Source: a virus. From it: a stretch of 64,000 nt of DNA. The stretch covers positions 1-64,000 of the IMG/VR virus record IMGVR_UViG_3300014325_000011, one strand, 5' to 3'. How positions within the stretch are numbered: the stretch's first letter is position 1; each line of letters begins with the position of its first letter. The position numbers were made by a program, and so were the translations under genes. The notes under the pieces were generated by a model that ran no database searches, had not been told where the DNA came from, and saw only the letters and a list, made by a program, of their open reading frames with translations. Shown piece by piece: positions 26,000-34,125 of this stretch.

Positions 26000-26407
26000 T
26001 TGGCCAGCGTGCCATGCGGCGTGCTCGAACGCGCGCCGACTCGTGATGTTGCGTCCAAGATGGGCGTCAGCAGTCCTCCCCGTGACCTCCGCTTCGACAT
26101 GCGGCAGGTCCGCCAGCTCCTCGGACTCCCCGAACCCGGCGCCGCCAACTGGCGTGAGCATGCCGCCTGCATCGGACTCGATGTCGACGACTTCTACGCC
26201 ACGGTCGGCGCAAGCGTCGAACCCGCCCGCCGTATCTGCAACGGCTGCCCGGTCCGCCGCGCCTGCCTCGACGAGGCCATCAACAGGGGTGAGCCCCACG
26301 GACTGTGGGGTGGCATGACCCCTGGACAGCGCCACAGAGAAGCGAAGCGCCGCGGGATCGCGGTCCCCGTTGAGTCGGACAGCGACGTCGACGAGGTGGC
26401 CGCATGA
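26000..26407 (+). CDS. WhiB-family iron-sulfur transcription factor
   Basis: 135 residues from TTG (AGGAG 6 nt upstream); an ATG at 26060 has no ribosome site. Four conserved cysteines, C57 and C80-x2-C83-x5-C89, ligate a [4Fe-4S] cluster. W-R-E-H-A-A-C, D-D-F-Y, C-N-G-C-P-V-R-R-A-C-L, the G-L-W-G-G turn and a basic A-K-R-R-G tail are diagnostic. WhiB proteins act with the principal sigma factor; phage-borne ones can repress host WhiB genes and alter septation. It heads the predicted transfer operon. Confidence 0.92.
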   Translation: MASVPCGVLERAPTRDVASKMGVSSPPRDLRFDMRQVRQLLGLPEPGAANWREHAACIGLDVDDFYATVGASVEPARRICNGCPVRRACLDEAINRGEPHGLWGGMTPGQRHREAKRRGIAVPVESDSDVDEVAA

Positions 26408-27240: not shown

Positions 27241-27563
27241 ACCGCGACTTGGCCAACGAACCGCCTCGCGACCGGTTTACCGACGCCCAGTGGGCCCGGA
27301 TCCGGATCGGCCGATGCCCCGAGCGGGGCTACATCACCCCCGACCTGCCGTACTTCTGCAACCTGCCCGCAGTCCCCGGCGAAGTGCTGTGCGACAGCCA
27401 CATGATCGCATACCTGGCCGCGGAGACAGAACCATCGCCGGCCTGGAACGACCAGGAGGCCCGTCCGCCGGCCCCGGTCTCGCCGGCCACCGTTGCCGTT
27501 CTCCTCTTCGCCGTGGCCGCGAGCCTGGCGATCATTCTTCATCTGCTTGGAGTCCTCAGATGA
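27237..27563 (+). CDS. Tail-anchored membrane protein
   Basis: 108 residues. The N-terminal half has C-P-E-R-G-Y ... F-C-N-L-P-A ... L-C-D-S-H, a possible metal site. The last 25 residues form one membrane helix (V-A-V-L-L-F-A-V-A-A-S-L-A-I-I-L-H-L-L-G). This would place the cysteine domain in the cytoplasm if tail-anchored. Confidence 0.6.
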   Translation: MNRDLANEPPRDRFTDAQWARIRIGRCPERGYITPDLPYFCNLPAVPGEVLCDSHMIAYLAAETEPSPAWNDQEARPPAPVSPATVAVLLFAVAASLAIILHLLGVLR

Positions 27564-27949
27564 CCTCGAGTCCCTACTTTGGCCGCGAGCGGCAACCAGT
27601 CGAAGACCAGCCACTCGGGTACGTCGACCAGTACGACGACGACTACGAGGACAAGGCCCCGACAGTTCCGCAGCGCACGACCTCGACGGTGAAGGACCGT
27701 CTGGCCGTCTGGTTTTACGGTTCCACCATTGAGGGGTGGACGCCGCGGATTGTCCTCACCGCCGCCGGCCTGTTCGCCCTGACCGGCTGGCATCTGCGCA
27801 ACGGCGCCGCCGCCGGGCTCTCCCTGATCGCCGTCCTCTACTGCGTCCAGATTGGGCGGTCCTCACGGGTCGGCCGGTTCTGGTTCGCCCGTCCGATTGT
27901 CGGGGCCCTGTGCGCTCTCCTGCTCACCACGCTGGTGCTCGTCCGATGA
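27560..27949 (+). CDS. Membrane protein, hypothetical
   Basis: 129 residues, ATGA overlap. An acidic Tyr/Asp-rich N-terminus (Y-V-D-Q-Y-D-D-D-Y-E-D) then two or three membrane spans from about residue 55. Resembles the small multi-span Spd-type membrane proteins next to transfer genes on Streptomyces plasmids in position only; no sequence family named. Confidence 0.6.
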   Translation: MTSSPYFGRERQPVEDQPLGYVDQYDDDYEDKAPTVPQRTTSTVKDRLAVWFYGSTIEGWTPRIVLTAAGLFALTGWHLRNGAAAGLSLIAVLYCVQIGRSSRVGRFWFARPIVGALCALLLTTLVLVR

Positions 27950-28230
27950 AGCCGCCGTCGGACGTCCCCAACACAGCCTCCCGCAGGCTGCCCCCGTCCG
28001 TTCTCGCCTTCACCGCCGCGCTAACCGTCATCGGCCTGGCGACTGTCTTCCACCGTCTTCACGGCGGCATGTTCGTCTCCCTGCTGCTCATCGCAGCAGG
28101 CTGGTCGACCGTCCGCCTTGTCGCGCTCGGATTCCGCCGCGAGAAGGCCACTGGCTGGTGGAAGCGCCAGGCAGCACTCTCGGTCGGTCTCTTCGTCGCC
28201 GCGTTCGTGACTGCGGGGGTGATCGGCTAA
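27946..28230 (+). CDS. Small membrane protein
   Basis: 94 residues, ATGA overlap. Three hydrophobic segments (L-A-F-T-A-A-L-T-V-I-G-L-A; F-V-S-L-L-L-I-A-A-G-W; L-F-V-A-A-F-V-T-A-G-V) around a basic loop. Function unknown; in the membrane-protein run before the DUF2637 gene. Confidence 0.6.
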   Translation: MKPPSDVPNTASRRLPPSVLAFTAALTVIGLATVFHRLHGGMFVSLLLIAAGWSTVRLVALGFRREKATGWWKRQAALSVGLFVAAFVTAGVIG

Positions 28231-28703
28231 TGGTCGACACCGACACCGCAGTCATGACCCCACGCGGCGGTTCGGGCGTAGCCGCCCCACGTGCCGGCAG
28301 CTCGGTCTCCAAGACTGAGCCGGTCGTGCTGTCCGGGTTCGCGAACTTCGTCGCGGCGAACGCCCAGCCGATGCGCTGGCGCGACCTCGGCTGGGTTCAC
28401 AGGGCCAAGCCCGGAGAGCGTCCCCCGAAGCTCAGCGCCGAGGATCGGAAAAAGCAGGCCAGCGAAAACGGCGGCCTGTCCGACCGGGGCACATGGAATG
28501 TCCACCTCGCGGTCTTCACCGGGCTCTGCGTGGTCGGCACGGTGGCGCTCCTCATCGCCTGGACCATCAGCGTCGTCGGCTGGATCTGCCACCTGTGCTC
28601 GTCCCACACGCTGCGCCTCGCCGCCGGGCTTGTGATCGGCCTACTCGGCTGCTGGGCGGCAGCCCACTTCGGCCATGTCCACGTCCACGTGTGGCGTAGC
28701 TGA
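28230..28703 (+). CDS. Membrane protein, hypothetical
   Basis: 157 residues; ATG overlaps the upstream TAA. About 85 soluble N-terminal residues with K-L-S-A-E-D-R-K-K-Q-A, then two membrane spans (L-C-V-V-G-T-V-A-L-L-I-A-W; L-V-I-G-L-L-G-C-W-A-A) and a His-rich end (H-F-G-H-V-H-V-H-V). The C-terminal His cluster might bind metal. Function unknown. Confidence 0.6.
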   Translation: MVDTDTAVMTPRGGSGVAAPRAGSSVSKTEPVVLSGFANFVAANAQPMRWRDLGWVHRAKPGERPPKLSAEDRKKQASENGGLSDRGTWNVHLAVFTGLCVVGTVALLIAWTISVVGWICHLCSSHTLRLAAGLVIGLLGCWAAAHFGHVHVHVWRS

Positions 28704-28740
28704 CCACCTCCTACGCCCTATGAGAGAAGGTCCCAATCCG

Positions 28741-28968
28741 ATGGCCAAGGTGGCTGTTGGCCTGCTCGTCACGCTGTCCGTCGGCATACCCCTCGGATTT
28801 GTCTGGCGGCGGCGTGTGCTCTGGCCCGTTGCGCTGCTGCTTGTCGTCTGCGGCATGACTCTGTGTGTCACGACCGGCTTCTACCGAGCGGGAGCGCGCT
28901 GGCAGGACGACCTGAACCAGTGGATCAGCCAGGCCCGCAAGCCGGCGATCGCGGGCAGCACACGATGA
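28741..28968 (+). CDS. Small membrane protein
   Basis: 75 residues from the ATG at 28741 (GAAGG about 10 nt upstream; an in-frame ATG at 28720 is an alternative). Two membrane spans around F-V-W-R-R-R-V-L-W. Ends overlapping the DUF2637 gene by 4 nt. Confidence 0.55.
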   Translation: MAKVAVGLLVTLSVGIPLGFVWRRRVLWPVALLLVVCGMTLCVTTGFYRAGARWQDDLNQWISQARKPAIAGSTR

Positions 28969-29768
28969 GCGCCAAGGGCAAAGGGCGGCGGTGGCCAACG
29001 GTCAACGAGGCCGGCATCTTCGGCGTCGGCCTCGCCGCCGCCGCCTTATCCTTCGACACGTTGAAGGGCCTTGCCGGGCTGCTTGCCTACCCGTGGGCCC
29101 TGACCTACCTGTACCCACTGGCCTACGACCTGTACGGGCTGATCGTCGCCCGGGTGTGGCTTGCCGCAGGCGCCCAGTCGAAGAAGCTCCGCAACTGGGC
29201 GATGTGGAACACGATGCTGTCGATCGCTCTGTCGGTCGCCGCGAATGCCCTGTACCACGCACTCATCAACGGCCTGTGGACGAAGGTCGAGCCGGGTCTG
29301 GACGGCCAGCCGGCGCTGCACGTCGCGATTCCGGTGGTGATCGCCGCGTCGGCTATCCCACCAATCGCCCTCGGCCTGGTCATCCACCTGTACACGGTGA
29401 TGACCCGGGAACAGGTCGAGTCGGCCCAGACGGTCCTGCCAACCCCGTCTCCTACGGCAGACGGACCGATGACGGCACCATCCTTGGCGGACGCCGCCGC
29501 CGCCCGGACCAGCATGGCCGACACCGAGATCCTTGACGCAGAGGTGGTCGACGAGCTTTCCGCCACGTCGGGGTCGTCGCAGACCCGGGCGGCAATCGAA
29601 TCCCCGGAAGCGTCCAAGAAGTCCGCGGTCGTCGCCGAACTGATCCGCCTCCGCGACGAGGAAGGCGTGAGCTGGTCGAGGCGTGGACTCGTCCCCGACC
29701 TTGCCCGCCAGTTCGACGTGTCCCGTTCGCTTGTCGAGCAGGCGAAGACCGTGGCGGCGAAGGGATGA
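28965..29768 (+). CDS. DUF2637-type membrane protein (plasmid spread-like)
   Basis: 267 residues, ATGA overlap. Four membrane segments in the first 140 residues, with F-D-T-L-K-G-L-A-G-L-L-A and W-A-L-T-Y-L-Y-P-L-A-Y-D-L-Y-G as the DUF2637 signature. The C-terminal 120 residues are soluble, Ala/Ser/Thr-rich, and end in a helix-turn-helix-like tail (G-L-V-P-D-L-A-R-Q-F-D-V-S-R-S-L-V-E-Q). DUF2637 proteins are frequent near tra/spd genes of actinomycete plasmids and integrative elements. Role in mycelial spread of the element is inference. Confidence 0.75.
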   Translation: MSAKGKGRRWPTVNEAGIFGVGLAAAALSFDTLKGLAGLLAYPWALTYLYPLAYDLYGLIVARVWLAAGAQSKKLRNWAMWNTMLSIALSVAANALYHALINGLWTKVEPGLDGQPALHVAIPVVIAASAIPPIALGLVIHLYTVMTREQVESAQTVLPTPSPTADGPMTAPSLADAAAARTSMADTEILDAEVVDELSATSGSSQTRAAIESPEASKKSAVVAELIRLRDEEGVSWSRRGLVPDLARQFDVSRSLVEQAKTVAAKG

Positions 29769-31756
29769 GACGCCTTCTGGCGTGGGCGGCGGCGCTGGTC
29801 ATTGTGGTCGGCGCCGCCAGTCCGCTCGCGCTCGCCACCCCGGCCCACGCGGACGGCGTCAACGTCGGTGCCGCGATTGCCTTCGCGCGGGCGCAGGTCG
29901 GCAAGCCCTACGTGCTCGGTGCGAACGGGCCGAACTCGTGGGACTGCTCCAGCCTCGTCCAACATGCCTACGCCGCCGCCGGCCTCGCCCTGCCGCGGGT
30001 GACCACAGAGCAGATCGGCGCCGCCGGCTGGGTACCCCTCTCGCAGATCCAGCCCGGCGACCTTGTGTTCCGCTCTGGGTCCGAGGCCGAGAAGCCTGGC
30101 CATGTCGGTCTGTACGCAGGCGGCGGGCAGGTCATCGAAGCCAAGGGCTCCGCCTGGGGCACCGTCGTCACCCCCCTGTCGGTGTGGCATCCCCTCGCGG
30201 TGATCCGCCCCGGCGCGCCGGGCGTCAACGGCTTCATCGACCAGGCTGCGGCCCGGACCGGTGTTCCCCGGGATCTCCTGCGTGCCCAGATTTGGCATGA
30301 GTCCGGCTTCAACCCGACGATCGGTTCACCTGCCGGCGCGCAGGGCATCGGCCAGTTCATGCCCACCACTTGGAACGACGGGCACGGCGGCGGCCGTGGG
30401 GTCGACGGCAACGGCGACGGGAAGAGGAACATCCTCGACCCGGCCGACGCCATCCCTGCGATGGCTGACATGGACGCCGACCTGATCCGCGCCAACAACG
30501 GCGACATCGGCATGGCCCTGGCCGCGTACAACGCCGGACAGGGAGCCGTCAACAAGTTCCACGGCATCCCGCCTTACACAGAGACCCAGAACTACGTCAC
30601 GAACATCCTTGCCTCCGCAGACCTGAAACCCGGCCGGATCGACCTCCATCCCACCGCGCCACCGGCCCCGCCGATCGCCACACTGGTCCGGGAAGCGGCC
30701 ATCGCCGCACTGCCCACACCGGTACTTCCCACCAGCGTTGTGGACTGGGTAGGAGACCTCACCTGGGCTCTACTCACCATCGCCGCCGGGCTGACGCTTC
30801 TTCGCTGGCTCGCCCCGCATCTCTACACAGCATGGAAGGCCCGCGCGCAGAAAGCCACACGCCGCATGTACGCCACAGTCCGTACCCGGCCAAGGCCACA
30901 GCGCAGCACACCGACCGCCCGGTGGATCGCGCGGGAGTACACCGCGCGGGCCACAGTCGCCGCGGAACGAGGTGCGGTCAAGGGTGCGGCGATCCGCGAC
31001 GGCCGGGCCTATCGCCACACGCGCCTTGCTGTCACCACACGGCGCGCCCAGCCAACACCACACCGCTCCGGACGAGCACCGCATAGGCCGCCGCTGACTC
31101 GCCACACCACACCCGGCAGCACACAGGGTCGCCCCGTCATCCTCGCCGTCCTGTCCGGGCTGCGGTCAGGACTCGGCTGGCTCGCCACACTGCGCCGGCC
31201 CCCGAACACCACACCGCTTCCGAACACCACACAACCCGGGTCGACACCACATGCCGGAAGGCCACACGCTTACGCGCCCCCGCCGAACACCACACCCACC
31301 CCTCCGGCCGACACCACACCCCTCGTTGGAGTGGTCGAAGCCAGACCACACCGCCCTGACTGGACACCGCACACCAGGAGCCGACCCATGGACCTGCCCA
31401 CCCCGCTGTACAACGCGAAGTGGCGCGAACATCTGACGAACCCCAGCTTCGAGGCCGGTCTCCAGACCCGGCATGCGATCACCTCCCTCGAACTCGACTA
31501 CACACACGAGGTCGACGCCGTCGCCGAATACCTCATGGAGCTGTGCTCGGGCCTGTCCGAAGCACTCACCGTCTATCACGACGAGGTGCATGTCCGCGAC
31601 TACGACGAGTCGATCGTCGTCGACATCGCCGCTGCCGCCGAAGACCTCAACAGAGCCGCGAACAACCTGTTCGCAGCCCACAAGGCGTTCCCCGAGAAGC
31701 ACCCGGACTACTTCAAGGTCAAGGGCGCCCGCGGCATCGAACGCATCGGCGCCTGA
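29765..31756 (+). CDS. Secreted NlpC/P60 peptidase plus lytic transglycosylase, with unusual C-terminal extension
   Basis: 663 residues. Signal peptide 1-29 (cleavage near A-H-A). An NlpC/P60 domain (35-150) has catalytic C61 in W-D-C-S-S-L-V-Q and H113 in G-H-V-G-L-Y. A lytic transglycosylase (SLT) domain (155-282) has E179 in H-E-S-G-F-N, G-I-G-Q-F-M and A-A-Y-N-A-G-Q-G; a calcium-like loop D-G-N-G-D-G-K lies inside. A membrane span near 325-345, a basic Pro/Thr-rich region and a helical domain from about 542 follow. The last could start separately at ATG 31388 (AGGAG 7 nt upstream). Likely opens peptidoglycan for DNA transfer. Confidence 0.85.
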   Translation: MRRLLAWAAALVIVVGAASPLALATPAHADGVNVGAAIAFARAQVGKPYVLGANGPNSWDCSSLVQHAYAAAGLALPRVTTEQIGAAGWVPLSQIQPGDLVFRSGSEAEKPGHVGLYAGGGQVIEAKGSAWGTVVTPLSVWHPLAVIRPGAPGVNGFIDQAAARTGVPRDLLRAQIWHESGFNPTIGSPAGAQGIGQFMPTTWNDGHGGGRGVDGNGDGKRNILDPADAIPAMADMDADLIRANNGDIGMALAAYNAGQGAVNKFHGIPPYTETQNYVTNILASADLKPGRIDLHPTAPPAPPIATLVREAAIAALPTPVLPTSVVDWVGDLTWALLTIAAGLTLLRWLAPHLYTAWKARAQKATRRMYATVRTRPRPQRSTPTARWIAREYTARATVAAERGAVKGAAIRDGRAYRHTRLAVTTRRAQPTPHRSGRAPHRPPLTRHTTPGSTQGRPVILAVLSGLRSGLGWLATLRRPPNTTPLPNTTQPGSTPHAGRPHAYAPPPNTTPTPPADTTPLVGVVEARPHRPDWTPHTRSRPMDLPTPLYNAKWREHLTNPSFEAGLQTRHAITSLELDYTHEVDAVAEYLMELCSGLSEALTVYHDEVHVRDYDESIVVDIAAAAEDLNRAANNLFAAHKAFPEKHPDYFKVKGARGIERIGA

Positions 31757-32195
31757 CCGTCACCACACAGAACGTCCGACCTTCGAGAGGCCCGACCGCA
31801 CATGTCACCGGAGCCCCGCGCCCAGCTCGCCGTCACCACACGGCGCACCACCCCTGCCCGGGAACACCACACCCCCGCTCGCCACACCACACCGAGGTTC
31901 CGTCTCGCTGTGGCCGCACCCTCCGTGGCTGTGGTCGCCGCGGCGGTGGCCGGTGTGGTGATCGGCCTGTGGTGGGTCGTGCTGCTGTGTGGTGTTCTCG
32001 CGGTCACCACGGTCGGGTTGGTAACGGCCCGGCGGGGTGTGGCCACAGGGCTCCGCCGGGAACTCGTCACCGCCGCGGCTGGTGTGGTGACGGTCGCCGT
32101 TGCTGCGGCGGCCGGTGTGGTGATCCATCTTGCGATCCCCATCGTCATCCTCACTATCGGGGCAACGGTGCGGATCACCACACACCCGACCACAC
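31033..32195. repeat. CACCACAC octamer cluster, candidate translocase recognition sites
   Basis: Sixteen copies of CACCACAC or its complement lie in 1.16 kb. Plus-strand copies start at 31033, 31056, 31105, 31207, 31225, 31288, 31312, 31761, 31834, 31865, 31885 and 32176. Minus-strand copies lie at 31953-31960, 31987-31994, 32082-32089 and 32115-32122. Two further 7-mers ACCACAC occur at 31345 and 32189. The first eleven all point the same way. Copies fall in more than one reading frame and one is intergenic, so peptide repeats do not explain them. Confidence 0.6.
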
Positions 32196-33721
32196 GGGCT
32201 CGCCGTGAAGCCGAGAAGGCCACACAGGCCCGCCAGGCTGAGCTTGTGGCCTACGCCGACGACTGGCCACGCATCGTCCGTCTCGCGAAGCTTCCGAAGG
32301 ATGTTCTTCTCAACGGTCCGGTCATCGACCGCGCCCCGCTCGGACGTACCTACCGGGTCTGCACCCGCAAGGAAGACGGCGACATCGGCTTCCTCGCGGG
32401 CATGGTGCCCGGTCTGACCGTGGCCCTAGATCAGCCCTGGGGTGCGGTCACTGTCGAGGTGTCGAACAAGTGGCCGCGGGAGGCGTTCGTCCACGTCAAC
32501 GACGGCGATCCGCAGGAAGTCGCCCGCGCCACCACCGAGATCCGGCCTGTCGACACGATCGTCGACACGGAACTGTTCGTCGGCGCCTACCGGGCCGACG
32601 GGTCACCGTATGCGCTGCGCTGGTTCGACTCGGAGGTTGGCACCCGCCATCAGATGTCGGTTGGCGACATGGGCATGGGCAAGTCGTCGATCAACATTCG
32701 TGCGTTTGCCCAGCTCCAGGACGCCAGAGACTGGACGATCGTCTGTATCGACGGCGCCCGACGAGACTTCGGCCCGTGGGCGAAAGCGGGGGCCTTCTTC
32801 CGCTACGCCACCGACCCGGCGGACGCCCTGAACATCCTCCTGACCTTGGAGTATGTCCTCGAAGGCCGCGAGCAGTTCATGGACGACAACGGCTGGCGAG
32901 TATGGCAGCCATCGGCCCTGCACCCGGTCCTCGTCGTACTCATCGAAGAAATTGCCAAGTATGCGGAGCATCCCGTTGTGGGCCGGAAGATTCAAAGCAT
33001 TTTGGCCCGTTCGTCGAAGCGGATGCGCGCTGCCGGCATCAAGTTTGTGACCTCCACGCAGACAGGCACAGGCGGCGGTGTTGGCGGCTACGAGTTCCGG
33101 CGGATGATGCAGGACCGGCTGCACTTCTACTCAGTCGAGTCGACAGGGTTTCTGGTCCGCTCGAAGCCTGCCTGGCCGGGAGACATTGGCGAGTTCGCCG
33201 GCTACCTGTTCGCCGAGTCGCTTCGCGAGAAGACCGGGATGCTCATCAAGGCGGCGTGGACGCCGGACGAGGACCGGCCGGACATCATCGCGAACATCGC
33301 CGCGCACATCGCCCGTCCGGAGGATGAATGGCTGGCCGCCGAGCAGGCCCGGGTCCGTGCGGAAATGCCCGCCGACGACGCTCCCGCCACTCCGGCATCC
33401 GCCGTTCCCGCCTCTGCGGATACGCAAACTGTCGAGGGCGAGTACACGGTCCTGTCGGTCCACAAGCCGCCCGTGAAGACCCTCCCCCCGAAGGCGCCGG
33501 AGATGACGTGGGACCAGGCCAGGCGGACTTTGAATGCCATGGTCGAGGATGCGAAGGAACGCGGGGTGGTGATGAAGGAGATCGAGGCCGTGACGGGGCG
33601 GAAGCGCACGTGGATTCGAGACAATCTGACGAATCCGGCGATCGAAGCAGGGTCGATTGTGTGTGTCCGCTCGGGTCGGGATCATCGGTATACGGCTGTC
33701 GAGTACGCCTCCGCCGCATGA
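31802..33721 (+). CDS. FtsK/SpoIIIE/TraB-like DNA translocase
   Basis: 639 residues. A Thr/Arg/His-rich N-terminus is followed by two to four membrane spans (about 35-125). The motor domain has Walker A G-D-M-G-M-G-K-S-S (K294) and a Walker B-like strand V-L-V-V-L-I-E-E, with E in place of the usual D. S-T-Q-T-G-T-G-G-G follows. A Pro/Ala linker leads to a C-terminal winged helix (about 570-639: T-W-D-Q-A-R-R-T-L-N ... G-R-K-R-T-W-I-R-D-N). This matches TraB of Streptomyces plasmids, a hexameric pump of double-stranded DNA whose winged helix reads 8-bp repeats. The octamer array at 31033-32195 is a natural target. Confidence 0.85.
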   Translation: MSPEPRAQLAVTTRRTTPAREHHTPARHTTPRFRLAVAAPSVAVVAAAVAGVVIGLWWVVLLCGVLAVTTVGLVTARRGVATGLRRELVTAAAGVVTVAVAAAAGVVIHLAIPIVILTIGATVRITTHPTTRARREAEKATQARQAELVAYADDWPRIVRLAKLPKDVLLNGPVIDRAPLGRTYRVCTRKEDGDIGFLAGMVPGLTVALDQPWGAVTVEVSNKWPREAFVHVNDGDPQEVARATTEIRPVDTIVDTELFVGAYRADGSPYALRWFDSEVGTRHQMSVGDMGMGKSSINIRAFAQLQDARDWTIVCIDGARRDFGPWAKAGAFFRYATDPADALNILLTLEYVLEGREQFMDDNGWRVWQPSALHPVLVVLIEEIAKYAEHPVVGRKIQSILARSSKRMRAAGIKFVTSTQTGTGGGVGGYEFRRMMQDRLHFYSVESTGFLVRSKPAWPGDIGEFAGYLFAESLREKTGMLIKAAWTPDEDRPDIIANIAAHIARPEDEWLAAEQARVRAEMPADDAPATPASAVPASADTQTVEGEYTVLSVHKPPVKTLPPKAPEMTWDQARRTLNAMVEDAKERGVVMKEIEAVTGRKRTWIRDNLTNPAIEAGSIVCVRSGRDHRYTAVEYASAA

Positions 33722-33867
33722 TCGTTAACCCCACTCCCCCACCGGGGGTGGCTGCACGCTGCGTGATGCTGCCGGACCCTGCCGTTGATCTACCGTCTCG
33801 CGCACGCGCGCGCGTAAGGGTGCCTGTGGCAGGGTCCACGGCAGCGGCAGCGGCAGCATCCCAGTAG
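33718..33867 (+). CDS. Possible small ORF after the translocase
   Basis: 49 residues with an ATGA overlap, but low complexity (Pro, Ala, Arg) and containing the arms of a large inverted repeat. Could be a short coupled gene or simply the terminator region. Confidence 0.25.
   Translation: MIVNPTPPPGVAARCVMLPDPAVDLPSRARARVRVPVAGSTAAAAAASQ
33766..33859. terminator. Nested inverted repeats between convergent genes
   Basis: GGACCCTGCC (33774-33783) with GGCAGGGTCC (33828-33837), nested within ATGCTGCC (33766-33773) and GGCAGCAT (33852-33859). The central loop has an alternating CG run and GGCAGC trinucleotide-like repeats follow. Located between the translocase stop and the stop of the leftward HTH gene, as expected for a bidirectional terminator. 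Confidence 0.5.
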
Positions 33868-33870
33868 GGG

Positions 33871-34125
33871 CTATCCGTCACTCTCCGTAGCAGACTCCGG
33901 GGGTTGGTGAGTCTGGTTCCGCGCCGCGTTCGCCGCCGCGACGACCCGCTGAACCGTCTTCCGCGTAATGCTGAGAATGTCCGCGATCTCGTCGTAGTCG
34001 AGCCCGGCGGACACCGCGGCCAGGATCGCGGGGTCCCGCTCCGAGGTGTATTCGCGGTGCAGGTCGGCGAGTCGTCTGAGGTTCGCTCGCGTGGTGTCGG
34101 CGCTGGCCGGTGGGGGAGTGGTCAC
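33871..34125 (-). CDS. HTH regulator, probably leaderless
   Basis: 84 residues from GTG at 34125; TAGACT lies 7 nt upstream as a -10 hexamer, so the mRNA would start at the GTG. Residues about 42-65 (D-Y-D-E-I-A-D-I-L-S-I-T-R-K-T-V-Q-R-V-V-A-A-A) form a sigma/LuxR-type helix-turn-helix. An earlier in-frame start would translate through the palindromic operator. It likely binds that operator (34148-34180) and represses itself and the rightward train of small genes (inference). Confidence 0.7.
   Translation of the reverse strand: MTTPPPASADTTRANLRRLADLHREYTSERDPAILAAVSAGLDYDEIADILSITRKTVQRVVAAANAARNQTHQPPESATESDG

Follow-up and report, generated by a model that had tools for sequence, protein, structure and literature searches.

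An octamer array in coding DNA of a TraB-type gene module of a tailed phage and its possible role as a DNA address

The stretch of DNA considered here (the window, 64,000 nucleotides, positions 1 to 64,000 of the IMG/VR virus record IMGVR_UViG_3300014325_000011) is part of a record of 115,125 bp which encodes a portal protein, a tape measure protein and minor tail proteins and is not a plasmid. Genes for a DnaB helicase, a large serine integrase, a tyrosine integrase and a GntR regulator are also present and, together with the portal and tail genes, they identify the record as a phage, very probably a temperate one. From about 26.1 to 33.9 kb the window holds a putative transfer module, whose gene content indicates that an actinobacterial tailed phage carries a plasmid-style, FtsK-type and conjugation-like set of genes. 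Like parts, namely GntR or WhiB, TraA, TraB and DUF2637 genes, are carried by Streptomyces and related plasmids. In the part of the literature that was searched no phage with such a module was found described, and its novelty is provisional. The features of the module and of the repeat array that it contains are the following (positions in the window):

26099..26407, plus strand: WhiB-like regulator with which the module opens
27560..28968, plus strand: four small predicted proteins, some membrane-spanning, lying between WhiB and the DUF2637-like gene
28965..29768, plus strand: DUF2637-like (SpdB-type) membrane protein of 267 aa (PF10935, E=6e-4)
29604..29762, plus strand: predicted helix-turn-helix at the C-terminus of the DUF2637-like protein
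29765..31756, plus strand: NlpC/P60 and SLT transglycosylase protein of 663 aa with an N-terminal hydrophobic signal, a predicted wall hydrolase (nlpC/SLT gene)
31033..32183, no strand assigned: CACCACAC array of 16 copies, eleven on the plus strand, then four on the minus strand, then one on the plus strand
31033..31319, plus strand: seven octamers in the Thr/Pro-rich linker part of the nlpC/SLT gene, read as NTTP, HTTP, DTTP, VTTR and TPH
31388..31756, plus strand: copy-free block, C-terminal 122-aa domain of the hydrolase, with a possible separate internal start at 31388
31761..31768, plus strand: octamer in the 45 bp that separate nlpC/SLT from traB
31802..33721, plus strand: TraB-like FtsK/SpoIIIE-type translocase of 639 aa
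31834..31892, plus strand: three octamers in the part of traB coding for the cytoplasmic N-terminus
31953..32122, minus strand: four reverse-orientation octamers in the part of traB coding for membrane helices, three of the four reading GVV
32176..32183, plus strand: final octamer, reading ITTH, within traB
33509..33718, plus strand: C-terminal winged-helix region of TraB, which aligns with plasmid TraB C-termini
33715..33887, no strand assigned: conserved non-coding element 3' of traB, candidate clt, in which inverted GGCAG(C) repeats flank a GCGCACGCGCGCG core

The translocase had been called TraB-like in a first-pass annotation made from the letters of the sequence, and this assignment proved sound, since homology to TraB runs from end to end and includes the C-terminal winged-helix region. 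In a profile-profile comparison with 16 plasmid TraBs the alignment covered 465 columns with a probability of 99.7%, and the motif RxW was shared in the winged-helix region (G000). The protein matches phrog_1358 (FtsK/SpoIIIE-like, E=4e-10) and PF01580 in Pfam, the latter at E=0.003, below the family cut-off. Two hydrophobic segments (aa 32-77 and aa 87-126) account for the N-terminal membrane helices, and an AlphaFold model built on a two-sequence alignment (pLDDT 39) was too poor to confirm the winged helix. Searches with the sequence of the translocase alone gave no match in phages, plasmids, IMG/VR or GTDB genomes, and the sister phages described below were reached via the capsid-like protein.

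Sixteen exact copies of the octamer CACCACAC, an element-specific repeated motif within the range of about 7-9 bp that is typical of clt/TRS loci, are present between 31033 and 32183, a span of about 1.15 kb. Before the final copy, those on the plus strand start at 31033, 31056, 31105, 31207, 31225, 31288, 31312, 31761, 31834, 31865 and 31885, and those on the minus strand at 31953, 31987, 32082 and 32115. The count of sixteen, the common orientation of the first eleven and the copy-free gap over 31388-31756 were thus all confirmed as first reported, whereas the end of the locus, which had been put at 32195, has to be moved back to 32183, where the last copy stops. The early estimate that chance would give far fewer than one copy also holds, a second-order model yielding a local expectation of 0.07 per 1.5 kb; in dinucleotide shuffles of the window the chance level is 3.5 per 64 kb, with a maximum of 9. 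A similar density elsewhere in the element would have weakened the case for a dedicated locus, but outside the array CACCACAC occurs only three times in the 115,125-bp record (41721, 46822 and 83370).

This distribution bears on the possibility that the octamers are a polar guide steering the translocase. The KOPS of FtsK and the SRS of SpoIIIE are motifs of the same 8-bp class, read by winged-helix domains within the same translocase superfamily, and a run of eleven copies one way followed by four in the opposite direction would suit such a guide, of the kind that FtsK-type translocases read. However, KOPS-type motifs are replicon-wide and skewed, while here 16 of the 19 copies of the 115-kb record are packed into 1.15 kb, a single compact cluster that is neither chromosome-wide nor skewed.

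Almost the whole array is laid over coding sequence, with 15 of the 16 copies in genes; the copies fall into five frame/strand classes plus the one intergenic copy. The nlpC gene contains seven (six in one frame and one in another) and traB eight (3+1 in sense and 3+1 in antisense), while under a null of synonymous codons neither gene exceeded four copies. In the same per-gene null the GC-rich linker DNA allowed some other 8-mer to reach 7-9 copies by chance, and so the case rests on the recurrence of one word across two genes and the gap between them, as well as on the sister phage. A low-complexity peptide or codon bias in a Thr/Pro-rich linker, with no DNA function, would explain why many of the sense copies are read as xTTP, within a linker that is disordered, but not the five frame/strand classes, the intergenic copy, synonymous nulls below the counts, or a sister phage with another word in the same layout, and we regard it as scarcely credible. 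The view that the octamers are not just a peptide repeat, which had been taken from their different frames and intergenic positions, is strengthened by the presence of copies on both strands and by the excess over the synonymous null, and the data support a constraint on the octamers at the DNA level.

The orientation of the copies matches what they encode, as sense copies give Thr/Pro in linkers and antisense copies give Val in membrane helices. Orientation therefore appears to follow what the protein can tolerate, the direction of a single copy being free. A free orientation tied to linker or membrane-helix coding argues against the polar guide, since the switch from plus to minus coincides with the passage from linker to membrane-helix coding and the arrays of other elements have mixed orientations; only a very slim chance is left to that explanation.

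The most informative comparison is provided by a sister phage (G001, 115,477 bp), the capsid-like protein of which is 74% identical. Nearby genes are conserved between the two phages (g054 85%, g071 91.5% and g070 98%), while TraB is only about 31% identical (31-36% by part), the DUF2637-like protein about 30% and the hydrolase linker 41%, and the two traB genes have no detectable DNA similarity. At the same place the sister phage carries an array with another word, TCCGCAAC/CTCCGCAAC, the 8-mer being present in 17 copies in the region of the gene before traB and the 5' portion of traB itself, and the 7-mer CTCCGCA occurring 25 times in 1.5 kb; here too a copy-free block covers the C-terminal domain of the hydrolase. 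A homologous translocase locus devoid of any repeat cluster had been named at the outset as grounds for abandoning the idea of a recognition locus, and the sister locus does have a cluster, made of a different octamer. The array is thus a DNA-level feature, confined to one transfer module and wholly different between sister phages together with the DNA-binding proteins of the module. Since TraB, the DUF2637-like protein and the word have all changed while the neighbours were kept, word and module DNA-binding proteins change together, and the presence of a different word at the sister locus suggests that the words act as an address label for a protein of their own locus. The phages compared that bear the module are two, and between them TraB and the DUF2637-like protein have both diverged with the array.

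In both phages the 122-aa domain of the hydrolase begins with a conserved Met, and the 31388-31756 block may be an internal gene of its own directly before traB, where plasmids have traA. A further relative (G002, capsid-like protein 80% identical) gave no translocase match, but its shorter record also lacks the genes that flank the module, so it is not a clean negative; at about 78165 (L023, 18165 onward) this phage has six copies of AGTTGTGAG within 1.5 kb, possibly operators. In another (G003) an ordinary FtsK-like gene lies at 52-53 kb, and 14 copies of CGCCAACC are clustered in 0.6 kb at the end of the contig (L073 6986-7718, corresponding to G003 66986-67718); this cluster, in a small membrane-protein gene, is partly a 21-bp tandem peptide repeat and was not counted as support.

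Short direct-repeat arrays are also typical of centromeres and replication iterons, and the array might accordingly be bound by a partition or initiator protein of a phage-plasmid; repeats of that sort may be illustrated by pWTY27, in which the scan of TraB plasmids picked up short repeats at 338-563, outside the tra genes. On the other hand, no rep or parAB genes were recognised adjoining the array, which lies inside transfer genes, the array of the sister phage occupies the same transfer locus, and both a serine and a tyrosine integrase are present. We give this explanation a slim chance.

The locus had originally been interpreted as a new clt/TRS-type site with its own octamer. As a positive control the array scan was repeated on TraB plasmids, where it recovered the published clt repeats (PMC3583192) just 3' of traB, that is TGACACC in pWTY27 and CCGCACA[CG][CG] in pJV1; in most of the other plasmids examined the clt word was of the TGACACC or CCGCACA type. 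In the plasmids examined clt is about 50-175 bp long, largely non-coding, directly 3' of traB or overlapping its end, and made of 4-9 copies, and its 8-bp repeats are bound by TraB (PMC4170104, PMC12857230). The phage array resembles the clt/TRS of pSVH1, pJV1, pIJ101 and pWTY27 in consisting of short element-specific repeats beside the TraB gene, but differs in being 1.15 kb long, almost entirely coding, 5' of and inside traB, and composed of 16 copies on both strands.

Moreover, the clt position of the phages is occupied by another candidate. Directly 3' of traB, 176 bp of non-coding DNA are 82% identical between the two phages, with repeats of GGCAG rather than CACCACAC. An alternating core akin to GCGCACGCGCGCG is found 3' of traB also in pCQ3, Amycolatopsis, Nonomuraea and the viral contig L105, so that, the two phages included, it is present in 6 of 32 loci, compared with 0.5% of random windows from the same records. 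These likenesses in position and core are suggestive of a classical clt at 33715-33887.

The same scan revealed that many TraB plasmids have a second and stronger array, with a word of its own, inside the DUF2637/SpdB-like gene. These arrays consist of element-specific 7-8-mers in 9-29 copies, in several frames and usually on both strands, exceed the synonymous nulls, and lie in the stretches that encode linkers or coiled coils of transfer-operon membrane proteins; their words are CGACACG, CGCGACA, CGCGAAC, CGTGAAC, CGTGAGC, GGTCACC, CGCATCA, GGGGACC and CCGTACG, of which CGCGAAC belongs to pWTY27, CGTGAAC to NBC_01005 and CGTGAGC to pJV1. Those located in DUF2637/SpdB-like genes are:

L074 6472-7427
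L096 7865-8528
L077 6044-6671
L090 3888-4478
L098 2723-3289
L097 8760-9468
L086 10776-11328
L087 5073-5616
L079 6750-7115

The two words are hardly ever mixed, it being very rare for clt to contain the array word or for the array gene to contain the clt word. Under one fixed criterion arrays were detected in 18 of 32 traB loci but in just one of the 37 control loci (422 kb). Not all of the 18 are SpdB-like-gene arrays: in L082, L089, L094 and L104 the top score goes to other repeats, although L089, L094 and L104 have an array in the SpdB-like gene as well. Several traB loci had no array, and by the same criterion none was found elsewhere in the phages. In pJV1 and S. canus the genes fail the DUF2637 model, and it is their position and architecture that mark them as SpdB-like. 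In the part of the literature that was searched we met no account of arrays within DUF2637/SpdB2 genes, and the novelty of these arrays is provisional. Two other clusters belong to the same survey. In a Streptosporangium plasmid (L088 6568-6762) about nine copies of CGGAACT/AGTTCCG stand at a spacing of about 22 bp immediately before an FtsK gene, and more of them occur within the gene preceding it; in a Thermobispora plasmid (L081 10834-12076) more than 50 copies of CCGGTAC follow traB on its 3' side, within a Gly/Thr-rich gene and past it, and may combine a peptide repeat with a DNA array.

Pairwise comparisons among these plasmids separate the second array from TraB. NBC_01506 and S. canus share 87% identity in TraB and the same clt, while their SpdB-like proteins are 24% identical and their arrays different; likewise, NBC_01454 and NBC_00040 are 95% identical in the TraB C-terminus and 26% in the SpdB-like protein, again with different arrays. 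Conversely, NBC_01454 and S. virginiae have SpdB-like proteins 94% identical and the same array, with TraB C-termini 45% identical and different clt. In the plasmid sequences compared, therefore, the second array does not follow TraB, and its word changes between elements that are alike in TraB and clt. The array being located inside the SpdB-like gene, shared descent alone could give the correlation between the two.

These observations also weigh on an extended form of the clt/TRS interpretation, by which TraB would bind the octamers through its C-terminal winged helix and start the transfer of double-stranded DNA there. The homology of the phage protein reaches the winged-helix region, the binding of 8-bp repeats by TraB provides a precedent (PMC3583192, PMC4170104, PMC12857230), the array borders on traB and runs into it, and between the phages TraB and the array have diverged in parallel whereas the 3' element has remained 82% identical. 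Against this, the clt sites known among the plasmids examined are short, non-coding and 3' of traB, plasmid coding arrays differ even where TraB C-termini are 83-95% identical, and in the phages another candidate occupies the clt position. We consider this explanation unlikely, though a serious competitor. As to the original identification, the position 5' of and inside traB, the existence of long coding arrays on both strands as a system separate from clt and the conserved non-coding element exactly 3' of traB in both phages all speak against it, and the phage array is probably not a classical clt.

Which protein reads the array is a related question. The most likely reader, in a case that we see as evenly balanced, is the DUF2637-like membrane protein, by means of its C-terminal helix-turn-helix; the winged helix of TraB comes next as a less probable candidate, still a live rival because TraB has diverged in the phages too. 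The C-terminus of the DUF2637-like protein is predicted to form three helices (pLDDT 85-90) and gave weak matches to GntR-type DNA-binding domains, which were not significant (probability 0.97, best E 0.29), and by inspection plasmid SpdB-like proteins have HTH-like sequences at their C-terminus. The DUF2637 assignment of the phage protein lies below the curated cut-off (PF10935, E=6e-4), and an hhalign comparison of the phage DUF2637-like pair with plasmid SpdB-like proteins was not significant (1.8%), so that the link between phage and plasmid SpdB rests on the PF10935 match, gene position and architecture. It also counts against this reader that the SpdB2 of pSVH1 has been reported to bind DNA non-specifically (PMC4170104).

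We infer that the array is the phage form of the second array class found in the DUF2637/SpdB-like genes of TraB plasmids, with which it shares its extension over several frames and both strands in coding DNA of a transfer operon. The two differ in location, plasmid arrays lying inside the DUF2637/SpdB-like gene and phage arrays in the hydrolase and TraB genes; no CACCACAC copy occurs in the DUF2637-like gene (28965-29768), and the presence of the array in phage nlpC/traB counts against this assignment. That the transfer module has in this array a second address, which diversifies along with it, is a proposal for which we find acceptance and doubt equally poised. It would serve as the sequence-specific DNA address of the phage module: a DNA-binding protein of the module would recognise the octamer, load in many copies along about 1.2 kb and pin the element's own DNA at the membrane, at the TraB ring and the wall hydrolase, and such pinning would give self-specificity.

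Sites inside a spread or maintenance gene that are read by a protein of the same set have a precedent in the sps palindromes of spdA/spdA2, sps sites being found inside spdA2 (PMC4170104). Yet sps is a plasmid-conserved 12-bp palindrome present in 1-3 copies (PMC4170104), whereas the array word is an element-specific 8-mer in 16 copies. Actinomycete integrative and conjugative elements (AICEs) likewise combine TraB-type genes for the transfer of double-stranded DNA with an integrase, small genes for membrane proteins and regulators of the GntR or WhiB kind, but the element described here has genes for portal and tail and is a tailed phage, 115 kb long or longer.

From a broader perspective, and with some reserve, as a proposal that we find somewhat more open to doubt than to acceptance, TraB-type conjugation might use two address codes, the clt read by TraB and a faster-changing coding array read by an SpdB/DUF2637 protein, with actinobacterial tailed phages having taken over the whole module and exchanging, from one close relative to another, the second code along with the protein that reads it. 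The Spd proteins have been known for decades to be needed for plasmid spreading, and we know of no defined DNA target for SpdB2; the second array in SpdB-like genes offers a testable one and could explain why elements with near-identical TraB and clt do not move each other. Furthermore, the case shows that DNA recognition sites can be kept within coding DNA, in several frames and on both strands, with their orientation fitted to the protein, and the occurrence of the module in phages suggests that a phage genome may also spread by FtsK-type transfer.
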